The position numbers and the translations under genes were made by a program. From positions 1 to 40,636 of the forward strand of contig NZ_JZRB01000041.1 of assembly GCF_000964085.1 (NCBI RefSeq): DNA of 40,636 bases, in the 5' to 3' direction. This document shows, in pieces, positions 5,084 through 19,871 of this stretch. This DNA is from Luteibacter yeojuensis. GTDB lineage: Bacteria; Pseudomonadota; Gammaproteobacteria; Xanthomonadales; Rhodanobacteraceae. Under the pieces are notes generated by a model. That model saw nothing but the letters and a program-made list of their open reading frames with translations, was not told where the DNA came from and ran no database searches. Each line of letters begins with the position of its first letter. Within the stretch, counting starts at the first letter, position 1.

Positions 5084-6700
5084 TTAGCGCCAGCCCGAGG
5101 TAATCGGATAGCGGCGTTCGCGGCCGAAGGCCTTGGTGGTGACGCGGGGGCCGGGGGCGGCCTGGCGGCGCTTGAACTCGTTGATGAACACCATGCGGAT
5201 GACGCGGCGGACCGTGGCGTCATCGTGGCCGGCGGCGATGATGTCTTCCGCCGAGGCCTCGCCCTCGATGAAATGCTCGAGGATCGCGTCGAGTTCATCG
5301 TACGGCGGCAGCGAATCCTGGTCGGTCTGGTCGTGGCGCAGCTCCGCCGAGGGCGGGCGCTCGATGACCACCTCGGGAATGGCACCGTCGATGGCCGCGC
5401 GCCACCGCGACAGGCGGTACACCACGGTCTTGTACACGTCCTTCAGGGGCGCGTACGCACCGCACATATCGCCGTACAGCGTGGCGTAGCCCACCGCCAT
5501 CTCGCTCTTGTTGCCCGTCGAAAGCAGCAGGCGGCCGGTCTTGTTCGACATGGCCATGAGCAGCACGCCACGCGTGCGCGACTGCAGGTTCTCTTCGGTG
5601 ATATCGGGCTTGCGGCCTTCGAACACCGGGGCCAGCGTGCTGGTGAGCGACTCGTAGATGCCTTCGATGGGCAGCACGTGGTACTCGATGCCCAGGTGCT
5701 CGGCCTGGGCCTTCGCCTCGCGCAGCGACAGATCCGACGTGTACTTCGTCGGCATCATCACCGCCGTGACCTTGTCCTTGCCCAGGGCATCGACCGCCAT
5801 GGCCACGGTAAGGGCCGAGTCGATGCCGCCGGAGAGGCCCAGCAGCACGCCGTCGAAGTGGTTCTTGCCGACGTAATCGCGGATGCCGCGGACGATGCCG
5901 GCGTACATCACGGCCTCGGCGCTGCGGTTATCCGGCGCTGGCCAGTCGAGGGCGGTGAGCCGCTTCGTGCTGCTGTCGTACTCGACGCCCAGCAGCAGGT
6001 CTTCGAAGAAGGGCGCGCGGGCGGCGATGCTGCCATCGGGCTGCACCAGCAGCGAATGGCCGTCGAACAGCAGGTCGTCCTGGCCACCCACGAGGTTCAC
6101 ATAGGCGATGGCCACGTTGTTCTCGGTGGCGCGCTGGCGCAGCAGCGCCTCGCGCGTGGCGGCCTGGCGCTGGTCATAGGGCGAGGCGTTGATGACAAGG
6201 ATAAGCTCGGCGCCGGCTTCCGCGGCATGCGCGGCCGGCTCGGCTTCCCAGATGTCCTCGCACACCAGCATGCCCACGCGCACGCCCTCGATCTCGAAGA
6301 CCTGGGTCTGCGTGCCGGCCTGGAAATAGCGCTTCTCGTCGAAGACCGTGTAATTGGGCAGCGCCTGTTTGTGGTACGTCCACTCCACCTGGCCGTCGCG
6401 GATCAGCGAGGCAGCGTTATAGACCTCGCCACGGGTATCCGGGTAGCCCACGATGGCCGCGATGCCTTCCAGGTCAGCCGCCAGGGCCTCCAGTTCGCGG
6501 CCACAGGCCTGCAGGAAGCTGGGCCGCTGGAGCAGGTCCTCCGGCGGGTAGCCAGAAAGGGTGAGCTCCGGGAACGCGATAAGGCTGGCACCCAGGCGGT
6601 CGCGCGCCTCGGCGGCGAGGGCCCGGACCCGGCGCGCGTTGTCGGCGGTGGCACCGACGGGGAAATCCTGCTGGGCCAGGGCAAAGCGGAAGGTGGACAT
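5084..6700 (-). CDS. nadE: Glutamine-dependent NAD+ synthetase
   Basis: A 538-residue enzyme that amidates nicotinic acid adenine dinucleotide to NAD+, taking ammonia from glutamine. The N-terminal nitrilase-type glutaminase domain (about residues 1-250) shows the Glu-Lys-Cys triad: E45 in FPELTLSGYPPEDLL, K111 in HKQALPNY and C147 in VCEDIWE. The C-terminal ATP-pyrophosphatase domain has the P-loop GLSGGIDSALT and the conserved STGNKSE and GDMCGAYAPLKD segments. The frame stays open upstream to 7024, but MSTFRFALAQ at 6700 matches the family N-terminus and gives normal length. It is transcribed alone and is flanked on both sides by inverted repeats. Confidence 0.95.
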   Translation of the reverse strand: MSTFRFALAQQDFPVGATADNARRVRALAAEARDRLGASLIAFPELTLSGYPPEDLLQRPSFLQACGRELEALAADLEGIAAIVGYPDTRGEVYNAASLIRDGQVEWTYHKQALPNYTVFDEKRYFQAGTQTQVFEIEGVRVGMLVCEDIWEAEPAAHAAEAGAELILVINASPYDQRQAATREALLRQRATENNVAIAYVNLVGGQDDLLFDGHSLLVQPDGSIAARAPFFEDLLLGVEYDSSTKRLTALDWPAPDNRSAEAVMYAGIVRGIRDYVGKNHFDGVLLGLSGGIDSALTVAMAVDALGKDKVTAVMMPTKYTSDLSLREAKAQAEHLGIEYHVLPIEGIYESLTSTLAPVFEGRKPDITEENLQSRTRGVLLMAMSNKTGRLLLSTGNKSEMAVGYATLYGDMCGAYAPLKDVYKTVVYRLSRWRAAIDGAIPEVVIERPPSAELRHDQTDQDSLPPYDELDAILEHFIEGEASAEDIIAAGHDDATVRRVIRMVFINEFKRRQAAPGPRVTTKAFGRERRYPITSGWR

Positions 6701-6746: not shown

Positions 6747-6816
6747 CTGTAGGAGCGCGCTTGCGCGCGATGGGGGGTTGCGGCAAGGCCCATCGCGCGC
6801 AAGCGCGCTCCTACAG
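6747..6816. repeat. Two-armed inverted repeat supplying a stop codon
   Basis: The arms CTGTAGGAGCGCGCTTGCGC and its complement ending GCGCTCCTACAG enclose a loop of about 20 bases. It lies between nadE and the M19-VanX gene. The right arm overlaps the 3' end of that gene: the TAG stop at 6811-6813 (minus strand) is part of the repeat arm. Confidence 0.88.
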
Positions 6817-8760
6817 GACTGGGACGTCGTACAGGACAGGCGCGACGGCGGACGGCAGCGTGAAGTGCCACCACTCGGCCGGGTAGTTGCTGAAGCCTTC
6901 GGCGGCCATGGCCTTGAGCAAGCGCTCGCGGTTGGCCTTCTGCGCCGGCGTGATGCGTGGATCGGCTGTATGCGCCAGCGGGTCGAAGAAATCGAACCCC
7001 GTGCCCATGTCGAGCGGCTCGCACGTGCCGGCCGTGCAGCGCAGCAGCGTGAGGTCCACCGTGCCACCCCGGCTGTGGCCGGAGACCGGGGCGATGTACT
7101 CACCGAGCAGTTTTTCCTTCCCCAGGTTCGGGTAGTGCGCCGCCTTCGTCTGCGTCGCCGACACGTCGCCGGCCCAGCGCACGAATGCCGCGACAGCGCG
7201 CGCTGGGCGGTAGCAATCCCACACCTGCAACGCGTAACCCTGCTTGCGCACCGCGGCTTCCACGCGTGCCAGCGCCTGGGTAGCCGGTGTACGGAGGAAA
7301 CACTTCGGCGCGCGGTAGCCATCAACGACCGCGCCGGTGAAGTTGTCGGTGCCGGCGTACTTCATGTCTTCGGCAAGGCCAGGCGCCAGTGAGCGGATAT
7401 CCACCATGCCGGCGTCGGCCATCGTCTTCGCGGGTGACACCGCCGGCGTTGCATCGACCGACTCCGCCGCTGCCGGCTTTTCCGTTGCCGCCTGCTCATC
7501 GGCGGCCCAGGCGCGCAGCAGGTTGCCGCCCCAGATCTTCGCGATGTCGTCGTCGGAGAAGCCGCGTTGTTTGAGCCCTGCGGTAACGTTGCGCGTTTCG
7601 GACGCGTCCATCCACCCGGTGATCTCGCCACCGCCATCGAAATCCGATGCGATGCCGACGTGGTCGATGCCCGCCACGGTGACCATGTGCTGGATGTGGT
7701 TGAGGTAGTCATCCAAGGTGGCCAGTGGATGCTTGCGCTGGATCTGTTGCATGCCCTCGGCGTACGCAGGCAGGTAATCGTGCTTCTCGCTGTCGTACTT
7801 GCTATCGCCTGCCGCGGCCGCGACGCGCTGCTGCAGCGCCTTCTCGGCGGCCTCCCGCGCCGGATCCTTTCTCAGGAACTCCTTGTACGCCACCGCCTGC
7901 ACCACCCCACCCTTCGCCGCGATCGCCTTGAGCAGGTCGTCGGGAAGATTGCGTGGGTGGTCGGTAACGGCGCGCGACGACGAATGCGACGCGATGATCG
8001 GCGCCTTCGACAAGGCCAGCACATCGCGGACGCAGGCATCGGACGAATGCGAGACATCGACCATCATGCCCAGCGCGTTGGCGCGCGCCACCACGGCGCG
8101 GCCAAACGGTGTGATACCCAGGTTGCTGTCGGACTTGTCGCCGAGATCCTTGTCGGGCAGCGAACTGCCGCAAAGGTCGTTGTTGCCCACGTGCGCAAGG
8201 CCGATGTAGCGGGCGCCCCGCGCATAGGCGGCGTCGAGGCGGTGGATATCGTGGCCCAGCGAATAGCCGTTCTCGATGCCGATCATGGCCGACAGCACAC
8301 CCGCGGCCTTGTTCGCCCGCACGTCGGCGGGCGTCCGCGCCGCGCGGATCTGCGTGGGGTACGCCGCCAGCATGCGGTCGATGGCGTCGTACTTCTGCGC
8401 GGCCTGCGCCACCGCCTTCGCATAGCCGGCCGCATCCAGGCGCCCCTGCGCCACGTAGATGACGAAGAACGCGGCATCCAACCCGCCCCTGCGCATCTTG
8501 GGCAGGTCGACCTTCAGCGGCCCATCCTTGCCCGCGTCGAACTTCGGGTCGGCCATGTAGGTGAGCGGGATATCGACGTGGGTATCGATGGTGAGGGGAT
8601 GGTCCTGGGCGTGGGCCGCCATGCCCACCAAGGCAAGCCCAAGCCCCTGTAGGAGCCCACCCCGTGGGCGACGCCTCCCGCGACTGCCTTTGGGGCTTGG
8701 GTCTCGAGGGGAAAGATGTCGCGCACGGAGTGCGCTCCTACCTGGGGGGCATGGGATCAT
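6811..8760 (-). CDS. Secreted fusion of M19 membrane-type dipeptidase and VanX-type D-Ala-D-Ala dipeptidase
   Basis: Two zinc dipeptidases in one chain of 649 residues from the ATG at 8760. Residues about 54-420 are an M19 renal-dipeptidase domain: metal-site H61 and D63, bridging E163 in IGIENGY, H238 in VDVSHSS, H259 in ASHSSSR, and SDFDG near 372. M19 enzymes cut dipeptides, many with a C-terminal D-residue. A linker rich in Ala, Glu and Pro (about 421-450) leads to a VanX/DdpX domain: R518 in YRP, H562 and D569 in SGHSRGGTVD, and E629/H632 in EWWH, which hydrolyses D-Ala-D-Ala. All catalytic residues of both domains are present. The start is uncertain. The hydrophobic signal core (LLQGLGLALVGMAAHA, likely cleavage after residue 51) is intact, but the codons before it lie in an inverted repeat; starts at 8760 (three bases after the receptor stop) or TTG/GTG inside the core are possible. 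It is the last gene of the minus operon. Periplasmic location is inferred. Confidence 0.85.
   Translation of the reverse strand: MIPCPPGRSALRARHLSPRDPSPKGSRGRRRPRGGLLQGLGLALVGMAAHAQDHPLTIDTHVDIPLTYMADPKFDAGKDGPLKVDLPKMRRGGLDAAFFVIYVAQGRLDAAGYAKAVAQAAQKYDAIDRMLAAYPTQIRAARTPADVRANKAAGVLSAMIGIENGYSLGHDIHRLDAAYARGARYIGLAHVGNNDLCGSSLPDKDLGDKSDSNLGITPFGRAVVARANALGMMVDVSHSSDACVRDVLALSKAPIIASHSSSRAVTDHPRNLPDDLLKAIAAKGGVVQAVAYKEFLRKDPAREAAEKALQQRVAAAAGDSKYDSEKHDYLPAYAEGMQQIQRKHPLATLDDYLNHIQHMVTVAGIDHVGIASDFDGGGEITGWMDASETRNVTAGLKQRGFSDDDIAKIWGGNLLRAWAADEQAATEKPAAAESVDATPAVSPAKTMADAGMVDIRSLAPGLAEDMKYAGTDNFTGAVVDGYRAPKCFLRTPATQALARVEAAVRKQGYALQVWDCYRPARAVAAFVRWAGDVSATQTKAAHYPNLGKEKLLGEYIAPVSGHSRGGTVDLTLLRCTAGTCEPLDMGTGFDFFDPLAHTADPRITPAQKANRERLLKAMAAEGFSNYPAEWWHFTLPSAVAPVLYDVPVL
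8647..8741. repeat. Two-armed inverted repeat inside the 5' end of the M19-VanX reading frame
   Basis: The left arm TGTAGGAGCCCACCCCGTGG and the right arm ending GAGTGCGCTCCTAC enclose a loop of about 45 bases. It covers codons 7-38 of the M19-VanX frame as read from 8760, immediately before the hydrophobic core of the signal peptide, and leaves only 22 bases between itself and the TonB receptor stop codon. Confidence 0.85.
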
Positions 8761-8763
8761 CGG

Positions 8764-11757
8764 TTAGAAATCGATCGAGACGGTGAGCTGGCCGAAGCGG
8801 GGCGACTGGAAGCGCTGGGGCTGCAGGTAGGTGGGGTTGAGCCCGCCCACGCTGGTCTGCAGGTCCTGGTCGACGCCCAGGGTGCGCTGCTGGTTCAGAA
8901 GGTTGTAGACGGCGAATTTCACGCGGAGGTTGTTCTTCTCGTCGATGGGCAGCAGGTAGGTGATGCTGGCATTGAGGTTGAAGGTCCATGGCGTACGGTG
9001 TTCTCCCCGGGGCGAGCGTTCGTACACGCGGTTCTCGGAGACCGGGTCGGCGCAGTTCGACACGCAGATGAAGTAGCTGTGGTACACGGTAGCATCGTAC
9101 GGGTTGCCCACGCCGTAGCCCGTGATGGGGCTGCCGGAGAGCGCCGTCAGGTCCGCGCCCACCTGCCACTGCGGGGTGATGGCATAGGTGCCGCGCAGCT
9201 TGAACTGGTGGCGGTGGTCGTTGGGCAGGTAGCCGCCGTTGAGGTTCACCCACGGGTCGTCGAAGTTCTCGGTGCGGCCGGTGTCGTCGAAGTTGGTGTC
9301 GGAGTTCACCGGGCCCTCGGCGTTGCCCCGGCTCCATGAGAGCACGTACGAGGCATTGAACATCCACTTCTCGTCCCACGCGCGGTCGAGCTGGAATTCC
9401 AGCGAGCCGAACGTGCGGCGGGGCTTCTTCCAGCCGCGCTGGCCCAGGTAGTTGCCGTCGGCGTCGTACAGGGCCCAACCCTGTTTCGATGTATCGATGG
9501 TGAGGTAGCCATCGGGCGTGCCGTCGCAGTTGGTGTCGCCATACACGGTGACCTTGCGGCCCGGGTTGCCCATCACGTAACCGATGTAGCCATTGCCGCC
9601 GCACTGCGGGGTCGCGCTGATCTCCATGTCGTCGATGGCGTTGTGCAGCTTGCGGTAGGTGCCGCTGACGCCCCACGACCAGGTGTCGTCCAGTGCCTGC
9701 TGGAAGCCAAGGATGGCTTCGTCCTGGTAGACCGAATCCATGTGCTTGTCGACCTCGGCGCGCAGGTCGCCGACCGTGCCGTTGCCCTGCGAATCATCGA
9801 CGGGGCCGATCTGCGGCCCGAGGATGGGCACGGCGTACTGGCCGCCGTTGCGTTCCAGTACCTGGTAACCGTCGAAGCCATAGTACGTGCGCTGATCGAG
9901 CAGGCCGCCCGCCTGCTTGATGTTGATGACATTGGCCACCGGCAGGTAATAGCGGCCCAGGTTGCCGAAGACCTTGGTCGTGCCATCGCCTTTCAGGTCC
10001 CAGGAGAACCCGAGGCGCGGCGCGATCATGTTGTCCATCTTGATATAGCTCTTGCCCTCGCCCGTCTTGTTGTCGAAGGCGTCGCGGCGCACGCCGGCGT
10101 TGAGGAGGAAATCGGGCGTGATGTTCCAGTTATCCTCGACGTAGAACGCATTGTTGTCGGTCTCGAACGTGCCGTCGATCTCGTAGCGGCGGGCGCGCAC
10201 GTAGGCCGTGTACCCCGCCGGCACGACGCCACCGTTCTCGATCGTCGCGCCGGGCGTGGTGTCATAGATGTTGTAGTAGTACGCGCCCGGGCCGGGGTAA
10301 CGGCGCGAATACTGAGAGGTATCCACCTCGTGGTCGTAGCCGAACCGCACCACGTGGTCGCCCAGGGTCCACTCGAAGTCGGCCCGGCCCTGCTTGCGCG
10401 TATCGTTGCGTTTTTCGACCGCCGTGCTGGTGCTGCAGCCCAGCGGCACGCCCGGCGACGGCACCGCGCTGACCCGCGCCACCGGGTTGCACTCCTCGTC
10501 GGAAAGGCCGCGGGTGAAATCCTCCCGGTTGTTCTTGCCGTACATCAGCTTCATGGAGAGGTTATCCACCAGGTAGCTGGTGAACGTGCCGTTCCAGTTC
10601 GTGCCGCCGGTGTCGCTGTAGATCTCATCCTGCTTCACGCCCTTGGCGTGGTTGTCGTAATCGTAGGTATAGACCGAGCCGACGTTCTTGTCCTTGTCCG
10701 AGAAGGCCATGAATTCGAGCAGGTTCTTGTCGTTGATGTGCCAGTCGACCTTGCCGCCCCAGAAGCCCGAGTCGGTGTCGTTCTGCGTCAGCACCGTGCC
10801 ATCGTTATCCGTGTTTTGCGGTGTGTAGCCGCGTGCCTCGTACATGGCGAAGAAGAACAACTTGTCCTTCACGATGGGGCCGGAGGCATACACGTTCATC
10901 TTGGTGCGCGTGTAGTGGTCTTCCGACGACGTGATATAGCGCTCGCCATCCCAGTAGCGGTTCTTCGTCTGCGCCTGCCAGTCGCTGGGCTCGAAGGTCA
11001 TCTCGCCACCGGCCTTGAACTCGTTGGTGCCCGAGCGCGTCACGGCGTTCACCACGCCACCCGTGGTGCGGCCGAACTCCACCGAGTAGCCGCCGGTCTT
11101 CACCTGGAACTCCTGGTAGAAGGCGAACGGCGCCTCGGAAAAGCCGTTGCGGTTGTAGAAGTCGGTGACATTGAGGCCGTTCACGTAGAACGAGTTCTCG
11201 GCCACGGACGAGCCACCGAACGAGATGCCGCCGAAGCCGGCATTGCCCTTGTTCACGCCGGGCGCGAGCAGCGCGACGGCCTGCACGTTCTGGTCGACGG
11301 GCAGGCGGCGGATTTCCTCGCGGCTCACGTTGGTCGCGGTCTCGGTGGAACTGACGTCCACGGCCGAGATCACCACGGGCGCGCTCACCTGCACGCCTTC
11401 CAGGTCGGTGGGGCCCTGCTGCCGCTCCACCAGGTTCACCGTGGTGGCGTTGCCGAGGCTGACATTCACCTCGGCGGCCTGGCCCACCGGCGTGCCATCC
11501 AGCGTGCTGTCGAGGCGGTACCGCCCCACCGGCAGGAACGGGAAGCGGTAGCTACCATCCCGGTCCGCGGTGACGGTACGGGTCAGCCCCGTGGCCGGGT
11601 CACGCACCGTGACGGTGGCGCCCGGTTTCGTGCGGCCGACGATCGAACCGTCGGTGTTCGCGGCGAGCGCGGCCTGCGAGCCCAGCAGGCCCAGCCCCAT
11701 CGCAAGGCACAGGGCCCCGTGGCGCGGCACGCGCCGGTTCGTCTTGGTGTGCCCCAT
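8764..11757 (-). CDS. TonB-dependent outer membrane receptor, Oar-like
   Basis: A 997-residue outer membrane transporter. The signal peptide is about residues 1-32, with hydrophobic core LCLAMGLGLLGSQAALA. A carboxypeptidase-regulatory-like beta-sandwich follows (about 35-105: SIVGRTKPGATVTVRDPATG...DGSYRFPFLPVGRY), then the plug domain (VSREEIRRLPVDQNVQAVALLAPGV...SFGGSSVAENSFYVNGLNVTDFYNRNG). A large barrel ends in the terminal phenylalanine typical of outer membrane proteins (LTVSIDF). The architecture is that of Oar-type receptors common in Xanthomonadales. The substrate is unknown from sequence. Its place between a transglutaminase-like gene and a stem-peptide dipeptidase suggests muropeptides or peptides. 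The ATG at 11757 has GGAG about seven bases upstream. No iron-box-like sequence was noticed upstream. Confidence 0.9.
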   Translation of the reverse strand: MGHTKTNRRVPRHGALCLAMGLGLLGSQAALAANTDGSIVGRTKPGATVTVRDPATGLTRTVTADRDGSYRFPFLPVGRYRLDSTLDGTPVGQAAEVNVSLGNATTVNLVERQQGPTDLEGVQVSAPVVISAVDVSSTETATNVSREEIRRLPVDQNVQAVALLAPGVNKGNAGFGGISFGGSSVAENSFYVNGLNVTDFYNRNGFSEAPFAFYQEFQVKTGGYSVEFGRTTGGVVNAVTRSGTNEFKAGGEMTFEPSDWQAQTKNRYWDGERYITSSEDHYTRTKMNVYASGPIVKDKLFFFAMYEARGYTPQNTDNDGTVLTQNDTDSGFWGGKVDWHINDKNLLEFMAFSDKDKNVGSVYTYDYDNHAKGVKQDEIYSDTGGTNWNGTFTSYLVDNLSMKLMYGKNNREDFTRGLSDEECNPVARVSAVPSPGVPLGCSTSTAVEKRNDTRKQGRADFEWTLGDHVVRFGYDHEVDTSQYSRRYPGPGAYYYNIYDTTPGATIENGGVVPAGYTAYVRARRYEIDGTFETDNNAFYVEDNWNITPDFLLNAGVRRDAFDNKTGEGKSYIKMDNMIAPRLGFSWDLKGDGTTKVFGNLGRYYLPVANVINIKQAGGLLDQRTYYGFDGYQVLERNGGQYAVPILGPQIGPVDDSQGNGTVGDLRAEVDKHMDSVYQDEAILGFQQALDDTWSWGVSGTYRKLHNAIDDMEISATPQCGGNGYIGYVMGNPGRKVTVYGDTNCDGTPDGYLTIDTSKQGWALYDADGNYLGQRGWKKPRRTFGSLEFQLDRAWDEKWMFNASYVLSWSRGNAEGPVNSDTNFDDTGRTENFDDPWVNLNGGYLPNDHRHQFKLRGTYAITPQWQVGADLTALSGSPITGYGVGNPYDATVYHSYFICVSNCADPVSENRVYERSPRGEHRTPWTFNLNASITYLLPIDEKNNLRVKFAVYNLLNQQRTLGVDQDLQTSVGGLNPTYLQPQRFQSPRFGQLTVSIDF

Positions 11758-11796
11758 CTCCCCACTCCCATAAGATGATGTTTCGGGTTGTCGTCG

Positions 11797-13356
11797 CTAT
11801 GGCCGCGTGGGCGCGCCCCCTCCTGGCGCATCGACGCGATGCCAGCGGAAGTCGTAATCCCACTGGTCGAAATACAGGTTGCCGCCACGCCACTCGGCCT
11901 CGCCGCGCTGCGAATCCACCGTCTCGGAACGGGGGAACGTCTTCGCGGGCTGGAAGGGCCGTGCATAGTCGTCGTTGAAGGCGACGCGGTAGGCATCGAG
12001 CCCACCGAGGTAGAAATGCTCGAGCGACGGGTCGCCGTGCAGGCGCCCGGACGTCACGTCGACCGGCACCCAGCCGTACGGCGCGAGGTACACCTGGCCC
12101 CAGTCGTGGATGTTGTTGTACGTACCATCGGAGAACATCCAGCCCGATTGCCAGCGTGCCGGGATGCCGTTGAGGCGCAGCAGGGTCAGCAACAGCAGAG
12201 TCTGTTCGCCGCAATCGCCATGGCCCGCGTGCAGGGTGTAATCGCCGATGTTCGAGAGCGTGGAATACTCACGCGCGCCAGCCCAGGGGATGGTGTCGAC
12301 GGCGTCGAAAAGCTTCTGGGCGATGCGGTAGGGGTTGGTCTCGCCACCCACCACCTGCTTCGAGTACGCACGCATCGCCTCAGTGAAGACGATGTGCGGC
12401 GCCCGCTCCGCCACGTAGGGCTGCAAGTCGGGCGTGATCGGCGCACGCACCACCTTCGAAGGATCGATGTGGAAGTCGCGGCCGTATAGGGTGGCCTGCC
12501 ACGTCACCGAGAACGTCGTGGGCTTGCCCGCCACGGCCTTCGCCTCGAGGTACACCGTGCGTTGCACGGCATCGCTGGGTTGCGTGGCGAACGCGGCCGG
12601 TGCGTGGGCCACCAGCGTGACACCCTCGGCCTGCCCCTTGATCTCGCGTGGGAACGGCAGCCACGCGCGGATGGTTTCACCGGCGGGCACGGCATCGGCA
12701 TGGACGGTCAGTGTCTGGGTCACTTCCTCGCGCATGGGCAGCACACTGGTGCTGCCCGTGCGCAGGGCCGCCGCACGGATGGCGCGGTGGTGGTCGTTCA
12801 GCACTTCGTTCGGGCCATCGTTGAATGGCACGGGGTGGGCGCGGCGCGCACGCGCCTCGGCGCTGAGCCGGAACAGATTGGACGGCGCGCGGCTGAAATA
12901 GAGCGTGCGGCCGTCGATCACCTGCTTTTCAAGCAGCCCGGCGGCATCCCACGTCGCGAACTCGGCGTCGCTGAGGTCGGGGATCTGCTTGCGCAGCTTC
13001 GCCTTGGCGGCGTCGGCATCGAGCGTGAAATCGAGCAGGATGCGGCGCATGCGTTCGCGCTGGAAGCGCAGCGTCTGCTGTTGCGCAGAGTCGAGATGGG
13101 GCGCGGCCAGGGCGGTCTTGATCGTGGCTTCGGCGGCGGTGAAGTGGCCGGCGTCGATCTGCTGGGCGGCGGTGGCGGCGGGGGTGTTGGGTTGGGGGGC
13201 CTGGGGCAAGCTGGTATCGCGCGCAAGCGCGCTCCCACAGCAAGGTGCGGCCCGCGCTACCTCCTGTGGGAGCGCGCTTGCGCGCGATACCCCCGCGGCA
13301 CACAGCAAGGCTGCGATGGCGCCGCAAAAGAAGGCTGGTCGAAGAGCCGCTTGCAC
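11797..13356 (-). CDS. Secreted transglutaminase-like (papain-fold) protein
   Basis: A 519-residue protein with a C-terminal transglutaminase-like core. The cysteine, histidine and aspartate of the triad are C382 (GHGDCGEQTLLLLTLL), H417 (IHDWGQVYL) and D433 (VPVDVT). Bacterial members are usually cysteine peptidases or amidases rather than cross-linkers. I chose the GTG at 13356: it starts a normal signal peptide (MQAALRPAFFCGAIAALL), has CGGGGA upstream, and lies downstream of a TTGACC/TACACA promoter at 13405-13433. The frame remains open to a TTG at 13422 (541 residues), but that codon would lie upstream of the transcription start. Residues 23-48, right after the signal core, are encoded by an inverted repeat. 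The middle part (about 60-310) has no motif I recognise. First gene of the minus operon, with the TonB receptor 39 bases downstream. Substrate unknown; peptides are inferred from context. Confidence 0.8.
   Translation of the reverse strand: MQAALRPAFFCGAIAALLCAAGVSRASALPQEVARAAPCCGSALARDTSLPQAPQPNTPAATAAQQIDAGHFTAAEATIKTALAAPHLDSAQQQTLRFQRERMRRILLDFTLDADAAKAKLRKQIPDLSDAEFATWDAAGLLEKQVIDGRTLYFSRAPSNLFRLSAEARARRAHPVPFNDGPNEVLNDHHRAIRAAALRTGSTSVLPMREEVTQTLTVHADAVPAGETIRAWLPFPREIKGQAEGVTLVAHAPAAFATQPSDAVQRTVYLEAKAVAGKPTTFSVTWQATLYGRDFHIDPSKVVRAPITPDLQPYVAERAPHIVFTEAMRAYSKQVVGGETNPYRIAQKLFDAVDTIPWAGAREYSTLSNIGDYTLHAGHGDCGEQTLLLLTLLRLNGIPARWQSGWMFSDGTYNNIHDWGQVYLAPYGWVPVDVTSGRLHGDPSLEHFYLGGLDAYRVAFNDDYARPFQPAKTFPRSETVDSQRGEAEWRGGNLYFDQWDYDFRWHRVDAPGGGAPTRP
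13214..13290. repeat. Intragenic inverted repeat with perfect 27-bp arms
   Basis: The arms at 13214-13240 and 13264-13290 are perfect reverse complements (the left one begins GTATCGCGCGCAAGCGCG) around a 23-base loop. They lie in frame inside the transglutaminase-like gene, directly after the signal peptide, and are oriented opposite to most other copies (GTGGGAG ends face the loop). Confidence 0.92.
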
Positions 13357-13404
13357 CGTTCGGTATCCCCGTTGCACCGTGGTGGATGGGTCGTGCGTCA
13401 GGGC

Positions 13405-13433
13405 TGTGTAACATGCTTGCAAACGCCGGTCAA
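13405..13433 (-). promoter_or_regulatory. Candidate sigma-70 promoter of the minus operon
   Basis: On the minus strand a TTGACC -35 (13428-13433) and a TACACA -10 (13405-13410) are separated by 17 bases. A start near 13397 would leave a short leader before the GTG at 13356 and would exclude the TTG at 13422 as start codon. Confidence 0.5.
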
Positions 13434-13444
13434 TAATTTATGCT
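13417..13444 (+). promoter_or_regulatory. Candidate sigma-70 promoter of the plus operon
   Basis: TTGCAA (13417-13422) and TATGCT (13439-13444) have a 16-base spacer. The element overlaps the opposing minus-strand promoter, so the two operons probably share control. Confidence 0.45.
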
Positions 13445-13460
13445 GCATGCAATCTCGTCA

Positions 13461-13474
13461 GGAATAGATATTCC
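13461..13474. promoter_or_regulatory. Palindromic candidate operator GGAATAGATATTCC
   Basis: Perfect 6-base arms GGAATA/TATTCC around a 2-base centre lie just downstream of the plus-operon -10, where a bound repressor would block transcription. The RpiR-type regulator encoded in the plus operon is the obvious candidate binder, but this is inference from position. Confidence 0.4.
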
Positions 13475-13506
13475 CGACGCCGTGCGGCACCACCCGGGAG
13501 GGACGC

Positions 13507-14655
13507 GTGATCCAGTCGGTTTGGCCTTACCTGGCCGTGATGCTGCTAGCCGCCGGCTTCTGGCCGGCCATCGAACGGCGTTTCGGCTGGAAGGTGTTTG
13601 AAATACTGCCGCCCATCGTGCTCACCTACCTCACCGTCACCGCGCTGTCGGTCGCGGGCGTGTGGACCGCCTCGCCCGATATCCACGCGGCACAGGGCAT
13701 GCTGGTGCAGCGGATGGTGCCCGCCCTGCTCTTCCTGCTGATGATCAACTGCGACCTGCGCGCCATCCTGGCGCTGGGGCCGCGCGTGCTCGGCGTGTTC
13801 GCCTGTACGTCGATCAGCCTCTTCGCCGCCTTCGTGCTGGCCTACCTGCTGTTCCGCCACTGGATGCCAGGCAACGGCTGGATGCCGCTCGCGTCGCTGT
13901 CGGGGAGCTGGGTGGGCGGCACCGCCAACATGATCGCGGTGAAGCAGGCCATCGGCATGTCCGATACCGCGCTGGCCACGACGTTGCTGACCGATGCGCT
14001 GTGCTATTCCATGTGGGTGGTGGTGTTGTTCGCCGTCGCGCGCCTGGCGCCCGCCTTCAACCGCTGGACGCGCGCCACGTCGAGCGCCGACATGGCCGTG
14101 GCCGAAACCGCGCCGCGTGCACCGGCCACCACCGACAGCGTGCTGCTGTGGCTCGGGCTCGCGCTTGGCGTTTCCGCGCTGGCCACCGTGTTCGGCGCGA
14201 TGCTGCCCGTGGGGAGCATGGTGTCGTCCACCACCTGGACCATCCTCATCGCCACCTTCACCGGCCTGGTCGCCGCGCACACGCCGCTTGCCCGTTTGCC
14301 CGGTGCGCAGGCGGTGTCGAGCGCCATGCTGATTTCCGTCGTCGCCGTGCTCGCCTCGCAGAGCAGCTTCGCCGGCATCGCCGCCGCGCCACTGTACCTG
14401 CTGTGCGGCGTCACCGTGATCGCGTTGCACGCCGTATTTCTTTGCGGTTTCGCCCGCCTGTTCCACTTCGACCTGTACCTGTGCGGCATCTCGTCGCTCG
14501 CCCACATCGGCGGCGTGGCGGCGACCCCGGTGCTGGCCGCCACGTACTCGCGCTCGCTGGTGCCGGTGGGCATCCTGCTGGCGTTGCTGGGCTATATCCT
14601 TGGCACGGGCTTCGGCCTCGTTGTCGCGTCCGTCCTTTCCGCGCTGGCTTCCTGA
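13507..14655 (+). CDS. DUF819 family inner membrane protein
   Basis: A 382-residue polytopic membrane protein of the DUF819/YjcL family. About ten hydrophobic segments are visible, for example VWPYLAVMLLAAGFWPAI, LGVFACTSISLFAAFVLAYLLF and TLLTDALCYSMWVVVLFAVA. The glycine-rich LSGSWVGGTANMIAVKQAIG segment is characteristic of the family. The family has no established substrate, but several relatives sit beside dipeptide epimerases, so a role as a carrier of peptides or amino acids is plausible. The start is the GTG at 13507 with a strong GGGAGG five to six bases upstream. It is the first gene of the plus operon, and the next gene starts two bases after its stop. Function here is inferred from context only. 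Confidence 0.85.
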   Translation: MIQSVWPYLAVMLLAAGFWPAIERRFGWKVFEILPPIVLTYLTVTALSVAGVWTASPDIHAAQGMLVQRMVPALLFLLMINCDLRAILALGPRVLGVFACTSISLFAAFVLAYLLFRHWMPGNGWMPLASLSGSWVGGTANMIAVKQAIGMSDTALATTLLTDALCYSMWVVVLFAVARLAPAFNRWTRATSSADMAVAETAPRAPATTDSVLLWLGLALGVSALATVFGAMLPVGSMVSSTTWTILIATFTGLVAAHTPLARLPGAQAVSSAMLISVVAVLASQSSFAGIAAAPLYLLCGVTVIALHAVFLCGFARLFHFDLYLCGISSLAHIGGVAATPVLAATYSRSLVPVGILLALLGYILGTGFGLVVASVLSALAS

Positions 14656-14657
14656 CC

Positions 14658-16067
14658 ATGGACCTCGGCATGAACACGCTCCGCCACACCCTGCTTGCCG
14701 CGGCACTCGCGCTCGCCGTGGGCACCACCGCGGCCCGCGCCGCCGACACACCCGCGCCGCCACCGTCGGGCGTGCTCGGCGTCACCGACGCCCAGCTCGA
14801 TCCGGGTTACTGGGTGCAGCGCCAGCCGGAGGCCGACACGGTGCTGCTCGACGCCGCGGCCATCGCGTCGCTCAACGCGAAGGTGCTTGGCGACGACCCG
14901 TCGATGCACGACATACGCCACCTGGGCGCCACGGTGCCCCACGAGCAGGTGGTGGGCTGGATCACCACGCTGACGAAGAAGCCGGCGAAAACCCTGTACG
15001 ACGTGCAGGGGCGCGAGGTACCCGCGGCGACGATCGACGATGCCATCGCCAACGCCAGCCTCGGCACCATCCCGGCCCGCGTCACGCCGAAATACGGCAT
15101 GGCCCTGCGCCGCAGCGCGCTGCGTGGGTACCCCACCGACCAGCGCGTCTTCAGCCACGACGACGACACCGACATCGACCGCTTCCAGGAAAGCACGCTG
15201 TTCCCCGGCGACCCGCTGGTAACCGTGCACACCAGCCGCGATGGCCACTGGGCCTTCGTGGTGAGCCCGCGCTATGCGGCGTGGATGCAGGTGGCCGACA
15301 TCGCGTACGGCAGCGCGCAGGCGGTCTTCGCCCACGTGGATGCCACGCCCTATCGCGTCATCACGGGCGCGAAGCCCGCGACGGTGTTCACCCCCGAGGT
15401 GCCGGCGCTCTCCGAGTTGCAGCTCGACATGGGCACGCGGGTGCCGCTCGATGCCAGCGTGCCGCCCGACCAGCCGGTGAACGGCCAGACCGCGTACACC
15501 TCGTGGACGCTGAGCCTGCCGGTGCGCGATGCCAACGGCGGGCTGGCCTTCCACCCCGCGCTGCTCCAGCGCAACCAGGACTCCGCGGCGGATTACCTGC
15601 CGCTCACCCGCGCCAACATCATCCGCCAGGCGTTCAAGTTCCTGGGCGAACGCTATGGCTGGGGCCACGCCTACAACGGGCGCGACTGCAGCGGTTTCGT
15701 CTCCGACGTCTACCGCAGCATGGGCGTGCAGATGCCGCGCAACACAGGCGACCAGGCGAAGAGCCCTGCCCTGCCGCATACGCTTTTCACCACGAAGGAC
15801 AGCCACGACGCGCGCGTGAAAGCCGCCATGGCGCTCGACGTCGGCGACCTCGTCTATATCCCCGGCCACGTGATGATGGTGATCGGCAAGATCGACGGCC
15901 AGCCGTATGTCATCCATGACGTGGGCGGCATGAGTTACCGCCTGGCCGATGGCAGCATGCGCCGCGTGAAGCTCAACGCCGTCTCCGTCACGCCGCTGCT
16001 GCCGTTGATGTTCAACGACACGCAGACCTTCGTCGACCGCATGACCAGCATCGTACGGATCCCATGA
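14658..16067 (+). CDS. Secreted NlpC/P60 endopeptidase with SH3-type domains, YkfC-like
   Basis: A likely gamma-D-glutamyl-L-diamino acid endopeptidase that cuts the stem peptide between D-Glu and the diamino acid. It has 469 residues. The signal peptide (NTLRHTLLAAALALAVGTTAARA, end near 28) sends it to the periplasm. An N-terminal helical region and two SH3-like segments (about 140-220 and 235-300) precede the NlpC/P60 domain, with C344 in GRDCSGFV, H404 in GHVMMVIG and H420 in VIHDVGG as the triad. This matches the N_NLPC_P60-SH3-SH3-NLPC layout of YkfC-type enzymes. The ATG at 14658 lies two bases after the DUF819 stop; an in-frame ATG at 14670 gives a shorter n-region and is equally possible. 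Its stop overlaps the start of the epimerase (ATGA), as expected for genes acting in sequence. Confidence 0.88.
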   Translation: MDLGMNTLRHTLLAAALALAVGTTAARAADTPAPPPSGVLGVTDAQLDPGYWVQRQPEADTVLLDAAAIASLNAKVLGDDPSMHDIRHLGATVPHEQVVGWITTLTKKPAKTLYDVQGREVPAATIDDAIANASLGTIPARVTPKYGMALRRSALRGYPTDQRVFSHDDDTDIDRFQESTLFPGDPLVTVHTSRDGHWAFVVSPRYAAWMQVADIAYGSAQAVFAHVDATPYRVITGAKPATVFTPEVPALSELQLDMGTRVPLDASVPPDQPVNGQTAYTSWTLSLPVRDANGGLAFHPALLQRNQDSAADYLPLTRANIIRQAFKFLGERYGWGHAYNGRDCSGFVSDVYRSMGVQMPRNTGDQAKSPALPHTLFTTKDSHDARVKAAMALDVGDLVYIPGHVMMVIGKIDGQPYVIHDVGGMSYRLADGSMRRVKLNAVSVTPLLPLMFNDTQTFVDRMTSIVRIP

Positions 16068-17155
16068 AAATCACCGACATTCGCTTCGGCATGCTGCGCG
16101 TGCCGTTGAAAACCGCGTTCAAGACCGCGCTGCGCACCGTGGAAAGCGTGGAAGACATCGTGGTGATGGTGCACACCGACGACGGCCACGTCGGCTACGG
16201 TGAAGCCCCCGCTACCGCCGTCATCACGGGCGATACGCACGGTTCCATCGTCGATGCGATCCGCCACTACATCGCGCCGCGCCTCATCGGCGAGGATATC
16301 GCCGACCTCAACCGGCTCACCCGGCTGATCCAGGGCGCGATGGAACGCAACACCAGCGCCAAGGCCGCCGTGGAGATCGCGGTGCACGACCTGTGGGGCC
16401 AGCTGTATGGCGCGCCACTCTACAAGCTGCTGGGCGGCGGCGACCCGGTGATCACCACCGACATCACCATCAGCGTCGACTACATCGACAAGATGGTGGC
16501 CGATTCCGTCTCCGCCGTGGAGCGCGGGTTTGAGTCGCTCAAGATCAAGGTAGGCAAGGATATCGGCGTGGACATCGAACGCGTCCGCGCCATCCATGCC
16601 GCGGTGGAGAACCGCGCGCTGCTGCGCCTCGACGCGAACCAGGGCTGGACCGCGAAGGAAGCCGTCTATGCGCTGCACGCCCTGGAAGACGCCGGCGTGC
16701 GCCTCGAGCTGGTGGAGCAGCCGGTGAAGGCCCGCGACCTCGAAGGCATGCGCTACGTGACCGAGCGGGTGCACACCCCGGTGATGGCCGACGAGAGCGT
16801 CTTCGGGCCGCTCGAGGTCATGGAGCTGATCCGCATGCGCGCCGCCGACATCATCAACATCAAGCTGATGAAGACCGGCGGCATCTCCAACGCGATCAAG
16901 ATCGCCGACATCGCCGGCCTGCACGGCATCGAGTGCATGATCGGCTGCATGCTCGAGACCAGCATCAGCGTGGCCGCCGCGGTGCACGTGGCGGTGGCCA
17001 AGGCCGATGTCATCACCAAGGTGGACCTCGACGGGCCCTCGCTGTGCGCCTACGACCCGGTCGACGGCGGCGTGGCGTTCAACGAATCGGAAATCTCGAT
17101 CACGGATGCGCCTGGCCTGGGCATCCGCGAAATCCGCGGCCTGCAGGCGCTCTGA
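16064..17155 (+). CDS. L-Ala-D/L-Glu epimerase (dipeptide epimerase), YkfB-like
   Basis: An enolase-superfamily enzyme of 363 residues that epimerises L-Ala-D-Glu from murein to L-Ala-L-Glu, so that ordinary peptidases can use it. The acid/base lysines are K160 and K162 in SLKIKVGKD and K267 in INIKLMKTGG. The metal ligands are D190, E218 and D243. The dipeptide-specific DxD motif (D321-L-D323) binds the substrate ammonium group. R24 in FKTALRTV matches the arginine that holds the glutamate side chain in Bacillus subtilis YkfB, and the surrounding residues are almost the same as I recall for that protein. These residues favour Ala-Glu over other dipeptide epimerase specificities. The enzyme is cytoplasmic, with no signal peptide. 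The start overlaps the stop of the YkfC-like gene. This is the strongest single piece of evidence for the function of the locus. Confidence 0.92.
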   Translation: MKITDIRFGMLRVPLKTAFKTALRTVESVEDIVVMVHTDDGHVGYGEAPATAVITGDTHGSIVDAIRHYIAPRLIGEDIADLNRLTRLIQGAMERNTSAKAAVEIAVHDLWGQLYGAPLYKLLGGGDPVITTDITISVDYIDKMVADSVSAVERGFESLKIKVGKDIGVDIERVRAIHAAVENRALLRLDANQGWTAKEAVYALHALEDAGVRLELVEQPVKARDLEGMRYVTERVHTPVMADESVFGPLEVMELIRMRAADIINIKLMKTGGISNAIKIADIAGLHGIECMIGCMLETSISVAAAVHVAVAKADVITKVDLDGPSLCAYDPVDGGVAFNESEISITDAPGLGIREIRGLQAL

Positions 17156-17165
17156 GGCCAACGCC

Positions 17166-17999
17166 ATGTCACCCCTGGTGAAAATCCGCTCCGAACGCGA
17201 CCGCATGAGCGCGGTGGAGCGGCGCATCGCCGACTTCATCCTCGAGAACGCCCAGCTGCTGCGCGATTACTCCTCGCAGCAACTGGCCAACGCATTGGGC
17301 ATCAGCCAGTCGAGCGTGGTGAAGTTCACGCAGAAGCTCGGCTTCCGCGGCTACCCCGACCTGAAATACTCCGTGGGCGAGGCCATCGGCCGCGTGGAAG
17401 GTGACGACGCCCCCGCCGCCGGGCAGCGCGGCGATGCCATTGGCGCCGAGTTGTGGGCCCGCAAGACACGGGCCGAGGAAGCCACGCATGCCATCAACGC
17501 GCCCGCGACCGTGGCCGCCGTCGTCGCCGCGATCGAGCGCGCACGGCGCGTCTTCATGATCGGCGTGGGCGAAGACGACCTGCACGTGCGTACGTTCGCC
17601 ATGCGCCTGTCCCTGCTGGGCATCACCGCCATCCGCCATGCCGACGTGGGCCGCATGGCCGCCCAGGTGGGCATGGCCGAGGCCGGCGACGTGCTGATGG
17701 TGTTTTCCGAGCACGGCAGGCACGCCGCGCTGGCCAGGATCGCCCGCTTCGTCCGCGAACGGCGCGTGCACGTCGTCACCGTCACGCGGCACACGGCCAA
17801 CCCACTGCGGGCCATGGCCGACCTCGCCCTCGTGGTGGCCGCGCACGACGATGCCTCGTACGTCCAGGCGCTGATTTACCAATCCACCGTGCAGCAACTG
17901 GTGGATACCCTCTTTGTCCACCTGTGCGAAGGCGACGAACAGCGCCACCAGCGCCTGGTGGAGAACTTCGACCGCGTCCAGCAGTTGCTGGAACCCTAG
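17166..17999 (+). CDS. RpiR/MurR-type transcriptional regulator with altered SIS domain
   Basis: A 277-residue regulator. The N-terminal HTH_6 domain (about 1-77: MSAVERRIADFILENAQLL...SQQLANALGISQSSVVKFTQKLGFRGYPDLK) is typical of RpiR proteins. The C-terminal SIS domain (about 125-260) has a recognisable fold, but the usual sugar-phosphate loops are changed: GxGxS reads GVGEDD, and the SxSGxT loop reads SEHGRH. The family normally senses phosphosugars such as MurNAc 6-phosphate; here the effector may be something else, perhaps a dipeptide or amino acid. The start at 17166 lies ten bases after the epimerase stop; the frame is open further upstream, but that stretch is a shadow of the epimerase gene. 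A likely local repressor of the two divergent operons; the palindrome at 13461-13474 is a possible target. Confidence 0.9.
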   Translation: MSPLVKIRSERDRMSAVERRIADFILENAQLLRDYSSQQLANALGISQSSVVKFTQKLGFRGYPDLKYSVGEAIGRVEGDDAPAAGQRGDAIGAELWARKTRAEEATHAINAPATVAAVVAAIERARRVFMIGVGEDDLHVRTFAMRLSLLGITAIRHADVGRMAAQVGMAEAGDVLMVFSEHGRHAALARIARFVRERRVHVVTVTRHTANPLRAMADLALVVAAHDDASYVQALIYQSTVQQLVDTLFVHLCEGDEQRHQRLVENFDRVQQLLEP

Positions 18000-18015
18000 C
18001 CCCCGGAGCCACACC

Positions 18016-18768
18016 ATGGCCTTCCTGCCCCGGCTCGCCGGCCTGCTCGCCCTGACGCTCACCCTGCCCGCCGCGGCCGTCGAGGCCCCCGTGCCCTGGT
18101 CGGTCTCCCGGCAAATGGTGGTGGTGACCACCGATGGCTGGGACGCCACGCAAGGCACGCTGCGCACCTACGTGCGCGAAGGCGCCAGCTGGACGGCCGT
18201 GGGCGACGCCTCGCCCGTCGTCATCGGCAAGACCGGCAGCGCATGGGGCGTGGGCCTGTCGCCACCGCAGCCCGATGGCCCGCAGAAGAAGGAGGGCGAC
18301 GGCCGCAGCCCGGCCGGCGTGTTCCGCATCGGCAAGGCCTTCGGCTATGCGGCGACGAATGCCACCGCCATGCCTTACATGGGCCTCACGGCTTCGGACT
18401 ACTGCGTCGACGTGGATGGCTCGCCGTACTACAACCAGCTCGTCGACGAGAAAAAAGTGGGCGAGCAGGCCGTGGCCGGCGCCACCGAGCCCATGCGCCG
18501 CGACATCCATTTCCAGGGCGACCACGCCTACCGCATCGGCTTCGTCATCGAACACAATCCCGAGGGCAAGAAGGGCCAGGGCAGTTGTATCTTCGCCCAT
18601 CTGTGGAAGACGCCCACCTCGGGCACCGCGGGCTGCACGGCCATGGCCGACGACGTGATGGAACGGTTGCTCGCGTGGCTCGACCCGACGAAGAAGCCTG
18701 TGTTCGTGCTGCTGCCGAGAAGCGAATACGTGCGCCTGCACGATGCCTGGAACCTGCCCTCGCCATGA
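18016..18768 (+). CDS. Secreted YkuD-fold (L,D-transpeptidase-like) protein
   Basis: A 250-residue protein with a signal peptide (MAFLPRLAGLLALTLTLPAAAVEA, end near 22) and a single YkuD/ErfK-like catalytic domain. The active-site block is AHLWKTPTSGTAGCTAM, with H195 and nucleophile C207 corresponding to the HG...S-x-GC motif. The upstream GDGRSPAGVFRIGKAFGY segment is typical of the COG3786 branch. YkuD enzymes swap or cut the bond after the L-centre of the diamino acid in stem peptides and release D-Ala. No LysM or other wall-binding domain is present, so it may act on free muropeptides as a carboxypeptidase or by D-amino acid exchange; this is inference. The start at 18016 is 16 bases after the regulator stop, and the gene overlaps the next one by four bases. 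Confidence 0.88.
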   Translation: MAFLPRLAGLLALTLTLPAAAVEAPVPWSVSRQMVVVTTDGWDATQGTLRTYVREGASWTAVGDASPVVIGKTGSAWGVGLSPPQPDGPQKKEGDGRSPAGVFRIGKAFGYAATNATAMPYMGLTASDYCVDVDGSPYYNQLVDEKKVGEQAVAGATEPMRRDIHFQGDHAYRIGFVIEHNPEGKKGQGSCIFAHLWKTPTSGTAGCTAMADDVMERLLAWLDPTKKPVFVLLPRSEYVRLHDAWNLPSP

Positions 18769-19871
18769 GCTCGCACGACGTGATCGTCATCGGCGCCGGC
18801 ATCGCGGGCGCATCGGTGGCGTGGTTCCTCGCACCCCACGCACGCGTGCTGGTGCTGGAACGCGAGGCCTTCGCGGGCATGCACACGACGGGGCGCTCGG
18901 CGGCGCATTTCAGCGAAACCTACGGCTCCGCGCAGGTGCGCGCCCTGTCGCGCGCCACGCGGCCCTTCCTCGCCTCGCCGCCACCCGGTTTCGCGGCCCA
19001 CCCGATCCTGCAGCCACGTGGGTCGATGGTGGTGGCGCCGCGCGCGCAGGAGGATGCGCTGCGCGCGGATTTCGAAGGGATGCGTGCAGGCACGCCTTCG
19101 CTGGCGTGGCTCGACACCGACGCCGTGCTCGCCAGGGTACCCGTGCTGCGGCCTGAGGCGGCGCACGCCGCGATCCTCGAGCCCGCTTCCGCCGACATCG
19201 ACGTCAACGAACTGCACCAGGCGTTCCTGCGCGGGGCGAAGGCACGCGGCGCCACGCTCCAGCTCGACACCGACGTGCGCAGTGTCACGCGCGAAGCCGG
19301 CGGCTGGTGCGTCAACGGTAGCCTGCAGGCCCCTGTGGTCGTCAACGCCGCCGGCGCATGGGCCGACGTGATCGCGTCGCTCGCCGGCATCCGCCCCATC
19401 GGCCTCGAACCACGCCGCCGCTCCGCATTCCTCTTCGAAGCGCCGCAAGGCATCGCCACGCAAGCGTGGCCCTTCGTCGTCGACCACGACGAATCGTTCT
19501 ACTTCAAACCCGACGCCGGCCTCCTCCTCGGCTCGGCCGCCAACGCCGACCCGACGCACCCGCACGACGTACAACCCGAGGAATACGACATCGCCCTCGG
19601 CATCCACCGCATCGAGGAAGCCACCACGATGACCATCCGCCGCCCCACCCGCACCTGGGCCGGCCTGCGCAGCTTCGTCCCCGACGGCGACCTCGTCGGC
19701 GGCTACGCCCCCGACGCCCCCGGCTTCTTCTGGCTAGCCGCCCAAGGCGGCTACGGCATCCAGACCAGCGCGGCCATGGCCGAAGCCAGCGCCGCGCTGA
19801 TCCTCGGCCACCCCATGCCCACCCACCTGGCCGATGCCGGCATCAGCGCGGCGATGCTCGCCCCGCGGTAA
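18765..19871 (+). CDS. DAO-family FAD-dependent oxidoreductase (glycine/D-amino acid oxidase-like)
   Basis: A 368-residue flavoenzyme. The N-terminal dinucleotide-binding fold is clear (DVIVIGAGIAGASVAWFLAP, then LVLERE). Other family features are TTGRSAAHFSETYG after the first fold, NAAGAWAD in the middle, and the C-terminal GFFWLAAQGGYGIQTSAAM that closes the flavin site. The DAO fold covers D-amino acid, glycine, sarcosine and glycerol 3-phosphate enzymes, and sequence alone does not give the substrate. As the last gene of a stem-peptide operon, with its ATG overlapping the YkuD-gene stop, oxidation of released D-amino acids is the simplest proposal. No signal peptide, so it is cytoplasmic. 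The frame is open upstream of 18765, but that part is a shadow of the previous gene. Confidence 0.85.
   Translation: MSSHDVIVIGAGIAGASVAWFLAPHARVLVLEREAFAGMHTTGRSAAHFSETYGSAQVRALSRATRPFLASPPPGFAAHPILQPRGSMVVAPRAQEDALRADFEGMRAGTPSLAWLDTDAVLARVPVLRPEAAHAAILEPASADIDVNELHQAFLRGAKARGATLQLDTDVRSVTREAGGWCVNGSLQAPVVVNAAGAWADVIASLAGIRPIGLEPRRRSAFLFEAPQGIATQAWPFVVDHDESFYFKPDAGLLLGSAANADPTHPHDVQPEEYDIALGIHRIEEATTMTIRRPTRTWAGLRSFVPDGDLVGGYAPDAPGFFWLAAQGGYGIQTSAAMAEASAALILGHPMPTHLADAGISAAMLAPR

Follow-up and report, generated by a model that had tools for sequence, protein, structure and literature searches.

Among the closest known counterparts of the locus described here is ykfABCD of Bacillus subtilis, which goes together with dpp genes and whose enzymes are understood to act in the cytoplasm, after import by an ABC transporter. 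Murein-peptide recycling in Escherichia coli, which involves AmpG, MppA-Opp, LdcA, MpaA and YcjG, takes up intact peptides, which are cleaved once they are inside the cell. The focus of this work is a set of nine genes of Luteibacter yeojuensis on contig NZ_JZRB01000041.1, whose 40,636 nucleotides (hereafter the window) were examined entire and belong to a genome of 4.5 Mb. We read this locus as a regulated pathway for the import and catabolism of murein stem peptides, with a probability of roughly 0.72, and infer both its substrates and its transport steps from context.

The nine genes form two divergent, closely packed runs on the 40.6-kb contig, and their Pfam matches exceed the curated cut-offs. 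The minus-strand run consists of a transglutaminase-like protein, a TonB receptor and a joint M19 and M15 (VanX) protein, and the plus-strand run of a DUF819 membrane protein, an SH3b-NlpC/P60 enzyme, an epimerase, an RpiR regulator, a YkuD-fold enzyme and a DAO-family flavoenzyme. By their coordinates, the NlpC/P60 and epimerase genes overlap by 4 nt, as do the YkuD and DAO genes, and the remaining same-strand gaps measure 3-39 nt. A family scan places an NAD synthase gene on the left flank, while the genes on the right flank, recognized by eye, are presumably those of succinyl-CoA synthetase. Coordinates and Pfam matches thus agree with a preliminary description of this DNA, which had proposed two tight, divergent operons with these domains. 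Its account of gene order, overlaps and intact active sites was likewise borne out, with multiple alignments confirming the catalytic motifs of the epimerase, NlpC/P60, VanX and YkuD proteins; the motifs expected of the M19 domain, the transglutaminase-like protein and the flavoenzyme are present as judged by eye or from a single pairwise match. Hydropathy and visual inspection indicate signal-like N-termini for the M19-VanX protein, the TonB receptor and the transglutaminase-like, NlpC/P60 and YkuD proteins. By the same means the epimerase N-terminus has no signal-like character, and that of the flavoenzyme is hydrophobic, which we read as an FAD-binding strand.

The arrangement goes beyond chance, because it recurs in relatives and because the genes that recur with this DUF819 subfamily are missing near control loci: an NlpC/P60 or epimerase gene lies within 4.5 kb at 80 of 81 loci of the subfamily, but at none of 22 loci that represent other DUF819 subfamilies. 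Two of the 83 subfamily loci (L196 and L207, with less than 3 kb downstream) were dropped from this count. The control loci were probed with the window's own proteins (tblastn, E<=1e-3), so remote homologues may be missed there; within 4.5 kb they yielded M19 at one locus, a beta-lactamase-fold protein at one and none of the other families. Within the same distance in the 81 subfamily loci, NlpC/P60 was found 75 times, the epimerase 73, YkuD 61, the TonB receptor 57, the transglutaminase-like protein 57, RpiR 56, an SDF (sodium:dicarboxylate) symporter 49, VanX 10, and M19, the beta-lactamase fold and DAO three times each, the last four families (VanX included) lying mostly farther than 4.5 kb from DUF819. 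Counted anywhere in the 80 named loci, which are the best 80 of 257 and come mostly from Rhodanobacteraceae and Lysobacteraceae, the figures are 75 for NlpC/P60, 70 for the epimerase, 61 for YkuD, 58 each for TonB, RpiR and SDF, 57 for the transglutaminase-like protein, 55 for VanX, 53 for the beta-lactamase fold and 47 for M19. In many relatives the YkuD and DAO genes flank the SDF symporter gene (for example at L032 14119-15930), for which the window has no room because the two overlap there.

Loci at greater distance extend this picture. In Alphaproteobacteria, Pseudokordiimonas L204 and Kordiimonas L212 combine TonB, DUF819, NlpC/P60, epimerase and RpiR genes with one of diaminopimelate (DAP) decarboxylase type, and L204 additionally has an S66 LD-carboxypeptidase and a DAO. 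Hyphomonadaceae L207 carries alanine dehydrogenase and DAP decarboxylase; the decarboxylase exceeds the NCBIfam cut-off in L204 and L207 and is assigned in L212 by Pfam family alone. Paraglaciecola L209 has NagA, NagB-II, DUF819, NlpC/P60, an SSF symporter, a BadF-family kinase (below the NagK cut-off) and MurQ. In Bacillota, Marinisporobacter L208 joins DUF3870, epimerase and S66 LD-carboxypeptidase genes, and Anaeromonas L206 has DUF3870, epimerase and adenosine-deaminase-family genes. The DUF3870 gene stands between DUF819 and the epimerase in both L206 (5603-5929) and L208 (11227-11562). Three AT-rich genomes of the same class as Luteibacter show a DUF819-epimerase pair that overlaps by 4 nt. 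The sole exception among the 81 loci, L200 from a Thermomonas metagenome-assembled genome, encodes an Amidase_2 protein, an N-acetylmuramoyl-L-alanine amidase, at 9067-9834, adjacent to DUF819 and divergent from it. DUF819-NlpC/P60-epimerase is a conserved core, and its recurrence across relatives and distant loci agrees with the preliminary description, which had expected the genes to stay together.

The nine genes fall into two modules, the second of which (M19, TonB receptor, transglutaminase-like protein, RpiR regulator and, usually, the flavoenzyme) is dispensable. This module is jointly absent from 8 of 22 congeners, a distribution for which two of the three trees call for three changes or more. 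Of these congeners, 12 have the full locus (G014 without M19), eight a minimal locus with only VanX, DUF819, NlpC/P60, epimerase and YkuD (G016 additionally with DAO), one a fragment and one no locus; DUF819 occurs in 21 of the 22, with none in G020, and the contig of G007 breaks inside it. Among 14 sampled genomes from other genera of the family (G023-G036), six have the full locus, seven lack DUF819 and in one (G026) it belongs to another subfamily, so that all six other genera bearing this DUF819 subfamily carry the full form. DAO was not seen in the full locus of G036, and in three full loci the retrieved sequence is too short to reach the expected place of VanX.

The absences hold genome-wide. 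Neither RpiR nor M19 (E<=1e-20) nor the transglutaminase-like protein (E<=1e-10) was matched in any of the eight genomes with a minimal locus, as compared with one match each, at 84-87% identity, in the full-locus control G003. No orthologue of the TonB receptor was found in these eight genomes either, the best matches being paralogues of 35-37% identity versus 94% in G003, and the flavoenzyme has an orthologue only in G016 (73%), with a 48% homologue elsewhere in G010. On single-gene trees, the minimal form needs five changes for NadE and four for DUF819, and in each case at least three when counted by well-supported branches.

The plus-strand gene at 17166-17999 encodes a regulator with the HTH_6 and SIS domain architecture of the RpiR family. 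The preliminary description had called it RpiR/MurR-type; the first half of that name stands, but the protein reaches only 83 of the 408 bits of the NCBIfam MurR equivalog cut-off, and identity as a MurR equivalog was rejected. The divergent promoter region contains an invariant 17-mer, GGTCAATAATTTATGCT, on the plus strand at 13428-13444, which is shared by 19 of 19 full loci and 0 of 8 minimal ones and has a single match in its own genome when up to two mismatches are allowed. Directly downstream of it, in all 19 full loci, the printed sequence has a dyad of the form nGAAT-N4/5-ATTCn, represented in the window by GGAATAGATATTCC (13461-13474, no strand assigned), our proposed RpiR operator. 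In 13 of these loci it conforms to GGAATANNTATTCC without deviation, and the eight minimal loci lack that pattern even with two mismatches allowed; elsewhere in the Luteibacter genome the pattern, which matches the locus site on both strands, has one further match, with one mismatch. A consensus promoter scan gave one 9-of-12 site at 13408-13437 that partly overlaps the 17-mer and was of little use.

Across 79 named loci (L198, with less than 250 bp upstream, was dropped), the 400 bp upstream of DUF819 contain a dyad nGAAT-N4-6-ATTCn in 56 of the 58 loci where RpiR was matched at any place and in 1 of the 21 where it was not. These counts are not independent, because most loci are related, and Fisher values, which disregard that kinship, were set aside. 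The exceptions are L156 and L176, which have RpiR but no dyad, and L200, which has the dyad upstream of DUF819, yet no RpiR match within the locus. Of the dyads in the 1.56 Mb of all 80 named loci, 60 fall within the 400 bp ahead of DUF819 and 23 outside these stretches, and an arm-reversed control pattern turns up four times overall. The two Kordiimonadales loci, L204 and L212, have two dyads each upstream of DUF819. Extra copies at 5494, 19032 and 19074 of L204 and at 18817 of L212 suggest a wider regulon there, since they adjoin LD-carboxypeptidase, beta-lactamase-fold (both L204) and DAP-decarboxylase-type (L212) genes. The locus is thus probably RpiR-regulated, with shared presence linking the regulator to its candidate operator.

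The candidate importer is the DUF819 protein (13507-14655, plus strand; PF05684 3e-74, 251 bits against a cut-off of 27), in which hydropathy and visual inspection reveal nine membrane-like segments. Its predicted structure (pLDDT 86, pTM 0.83) has 11 matches in the Protein Data Bank (PDB) at E<=0.001, all of them CitS, with TMq of 0.59-0.70, while a profile search of the PDB gave a single weak match (E 0.065). Both the family score and the CPA-reentrant fold of the predicted model therefore place the protein among the DUF819/CPA-AT carriers, and the published CPA/AT assignment of DUF819 agrees with the predicted CitS-like fold (PMC8396727). An M15-DUF819 pair, in which DUF819 may be of this or another subfamily, is reported for 75 of 128 Neisseria meningitidis genomes (PMC12671195), and the accessible parts of open-access papers naming the family give DUF819 no tested function. 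The predicted fold fits import of L-Ala-D-Glu, because CitS carries a carboxylate and the L-Ala-D-Glu that NlpC/P60 would free is a dicarboxylate; the fit is no proof. DUF819 of this locus is a probable new carrier, for which the context suggests L-Ala-D-Glu as substrate.

In the core, DUF819 is followed on the same strand by the SH3b-NlpC/P60 gene (14670-16067), whose product has SH3_6 and NLPC_P60 domains, a signal-like N-terminus and the catalytic Cys and His in 46 of 46 alignment rows (rows here and below being selected loci that yielded an open reading frame match). In its domains and catalytic residues it resembles the PnpA/DvLysin type, and its best PDB matches are 3m1u (DvLysin, 1.8e-24) and PnpA 6sqx (2.4e-10); no Pfam family matched the N-terminal region in the c-clip position. 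The YkfC subfamily of NlpC/P60 enzymes is defined by Asp256 (PMC2954226). The YkfC-like identity given to the protein earlier had to be abandoned, as Asn replaces this residue in 46 of 46 rows, and the enzyme therefore need not require a free N-terminal Ala. PnpA cleaves gamma-D-Glu-DAP within muropeptides (PMC7860986).

The epimerase gene follows at 16064-17155 (plus strand) and encodes an enolase-superfamily protein whose nearest PDB entry is YkfB (1jpm/1tkk, 343 bits), which upholds its earlier description as YkfB-like, with the reaction predicted by homology. K162, K267 and the residues D190, E218 and D243, which we take to be metal ligands, are kept in 45 of 45 rows, as are R24, D321 and D323, presumably the substrate-binding residues. 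Its scores remain under the NCBIfam Ala-Glu epimerase equivalog cut-offs (253 of 500 bits for NF041118, 112 of 343 for NF011708). The catalytic lysines of YkfB are K162 and K268, and specificity varies among dipeptide epimerases (PMC5808125).

The first gene of the minus-strand group by position (6811-8760) encodes a probably exported fusion of an M19 dipeptidase and an M15 VanX-type dipeptidase (Pfam M19 3e-98, M15 2e-40). The VanX motifs SGHS[RK]GxTxD and EWWH and the conserved Arg are present, SGHS and Arg in 36 of 36 rows and EWWH in 35 of 36 (L045 is truncated at the locus end), and we take these residues to have their usual roles; the score reaches 170 of the 320 bits of the VanX equivalog cut-off. 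Both domains are thus where they had been described, but the fusion is no general component: of the 47 named loci with M19, seven have it in one frame with a beta-lactamase-fold domain, one (L135) has M19-VanX and 39 have neither, and in G003 and G008, which are close congeners, one frame encodes both M19 and the beta-lactamase fold, and VanX is separate. The fusion as a general part of the system was accordingly rejected, and it looks rare and derived. It was seen twice, in the window and in G013 (L043 15331-17139, the same contig as L135 3420-5228), and probably arose more than once, because the two differ in their junctions. By our own reading, palindromes resembling repetitive extragenic palindromes lie at about 13211-13290 and 8660-8760, in or beside the N-terminal coding sequence of the transglutaminase-like and M19-VanX genes, and the latter lengthens the M19-VanX leader.

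The remaining minus-strand genes encode a TonB-dependent receptor recognized by Pfam scan (8764-11757), which we take to be Oar-like, and a probably exported transglutaminase-like cysteine peptidase (11797-13377, start uncertain; PF01841 3e-18), whose AlphaFold2 model is closest to 3isr, a putative cysteine protease (E 4e-15, TMq 0.45). The plus-strand run ends with the YkuD-fold protein (18016-18768; PF03734 1.6e-6), a probably exported, proposed L,D-carboxypeptidase that keeps its GCT motif in 38 of 38 rows and has zero PDB matches at E<=1, and with the flavoenzyme (18765-19871). Described earlier as a DAO-family protein, the latter can now be specified as DauA-like, a putative D-arginine dehydrogenase, on full-length similarity to 3nyc (435.6 bits over query residues 5-368) and to 6p9d (434 bits). 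Pseudomonas PaDADH (DauA) uses most D-amino acids, not D-Glu or D-Asp (PMC9996824), and D-Glu was rejected by this analogy as a substrate.

Taken together, these features suggest a mechanism in which the TonB receptor would admit muropeptides or stem peptides through the outer membrane. In the periplasm, the proposed site of these enzymes, VanX would remove D-Ala-D-Ala, YkuD would trim the terminal D-Ala from DAP and NlpC/P60 would cleave the bond that joins gamma-D-Glu to DAP; further peptides may be substrates of M19 and the transglutaminase-like peptidase. DUF819, with its predicted citrate-symporter fold, would import the freed dicarboxylate dipeptide L-Ala-D-Glu, which the epimerase would turn, in the cytoplasm, into L-Ala-L-Glu, a substrate of ordinary dipeptidases; D-Ala would be oxidized by the DauA-like flavoenzyme. 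RpiR may keep both divergent runs repressed by way of the dyad that follows the promoter element, until a breakdown product releases it. The core of VanX, DUF819-NlpC/P60-epimerase and YkuD could stand alone, perhaps in recycling of self-murein, to which the receptor, M19, transglutaminase-like and RpiR module, usually with DauA, would add scavenging of outside material. The locus is real, conserved, probably RpiR-regulated and probably encodes a new carrier; its mechanism is proposed from context.

Murein as the substrate is supported by distant loci that add LD-carboxypeptidase, DAP decarboxylase and MurQ/NagA. Several observations weigh in the other direction. The epimerase match is missing in 10 of the 80 named loci, among which L181-L183 and L185 have DUF819-NlpC/P60, and DAO occurs in just 34 of the 80. 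In Anaeromonas L206 an adenosine-deaminase-family gene follows the epimerase and no murein peptidase was identified in the locus. The DUF819 family is broad, with different gene contexts for its other subfamilies, and structural alignments of the protein with CitS show only 13-15% identity at root-mean-square deviations of 5-7 A. If M19 acts in the periplasm, it could hydrolyse L-Ala-D-Glu ahead of uptake, making the epimerase redundant. Finally, the epimerase tree, likewise from a single gene, conflicts with those of NadE and DUF819: it places all epimerases of minimal loci outside those of full loci, with one change, in 96% of bootstrap trees. Because of this disagreement and the long branches of the minimal loci L031, L035, L040, L046, L047, L048 and L049 (0.08-0.43; 0.055 for G011, L041), the epimerase may have evolved faster or been replaced in these lineages; the long-branched proteins keep all checked active-site residues.

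It is quite conceivable, if on balance doubtful, that the locus serves recycling or periplasmic clean-up, with peptides from turnover of the cell's own wall being trimmed and taken back up, instead of feeding on foreign murein. The persistence of the core in eight congeners without receptor, M19, transglutaminase-like protein and RpiR is what housekeeping would produce, but a dedicated TonB receptor and an operator at one place (plus the one-mismatch match) fit inducible import, and in Paraglaciecola DUF819-NlpC/P60 stands among NagA, NagB-II, a sugar-kinase-family gene and MurQ. Catabolism of other D-residue peptides or acidic dipeptides, for example nonribosomal ones, with DUF819 as a carrier of glutamate, D-Glu or dipeptides in general, appears unlikely. 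The breadth of M19 enzymes, the SDF genes of 58 of the 80 named loci, the differing specificities of dipeptide epimerases (PMC5808125) and the wide D-amino acid range of PaDADH, which spares D-Glu and D-Asp (PMC9996824), would all accommodate it; the recurrent gamma-D-Glu-DAP-type endopeptidase, LD-carboxypeptidase, DAP decarboxylase, MurQ and muramoyl amidase point instead to murein. A response to cell-wall stress or antibiotics, with protection or remodelling of murein as the task of VanX, beta-lactamase-fold and L,D-transpeptidase-like proteins, would explain the VanX motifs, the YkuD fold and the beta-lactamase-fold domain that adjoins M19 in relatives. It is highly improbable, as the VanX score lies below its equivalog cut-off, no VanA/VanH partner was found among the scanned open reading frames of the window, and the epimerase, carrier and DauA have no evident role in such a response. 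Import and catabolism of murein stem peptides thus remains our preferred reading. The preliminary description had presented one regulated stem-peptide set that includes the TonB receptor, the transglutaminase-like protein and DUF819; this view is supported by the conserved gene context, by genes that are absent together and by the operator that loci share, but neither the YkfC assignment, nor a general fusion, nor a single undivided set survived.

No paper found in the accessible parts of the open-access literature describes this system. We lean, by a modest margin, towards one DUF819 subfamily being a dedicated L-Ala-D-Glu importer that, with the TonB receptor, exported peptidases and RpiR/dyad switch, would form a periplasmic-processing murein route distinct from AmpG/Opp whole-fragment import, with a carrier-epimerase core in two phyla. 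If so, there is a testable substrate for an orphan carrier family, a Gram-negative route emerges that cuts murein peptides outside and then imports the dipeptide, a TonB receptor becomes tied to murein feeding, and an operator is available for tracing the regulon. The carrier shares its predicted fold with CitS of the 2HCT sodium-citrate symporters, at the low identity given above (just 13-15%). PnpA of Photobacterium and DvLysin (3m1u) are likewise SH3b-NlpC/P60 enzymes; PnpA is secreted and acts on the peptidoglycan of other bacteria, whereas the gene described here belongs to a carrier/epimerase operon. Relative to clusters for N-acetylmuramic acid and N-acetylglucosamine (murQ, nagA), to one of which Paraglaciecola L209 joins DUF819-NlpC/P60, the nine genes of the window represent the peptide arm only. 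Unlike ykfABCD, which has an ABC transporter part, they include no ABC transporter family in Pfam and NCBIfam scans, so that DUF819 stands where that transporter would be, and their NlpC/P60 enzyme has a signal-like N-terminus and is not of the YkfC type. Recycling in E. coli likewise ends in L-Ala-L-Glu via an epimerase, but in Luteibacter the cutting appears to be periplasmic and the set is probably under RpiR control.

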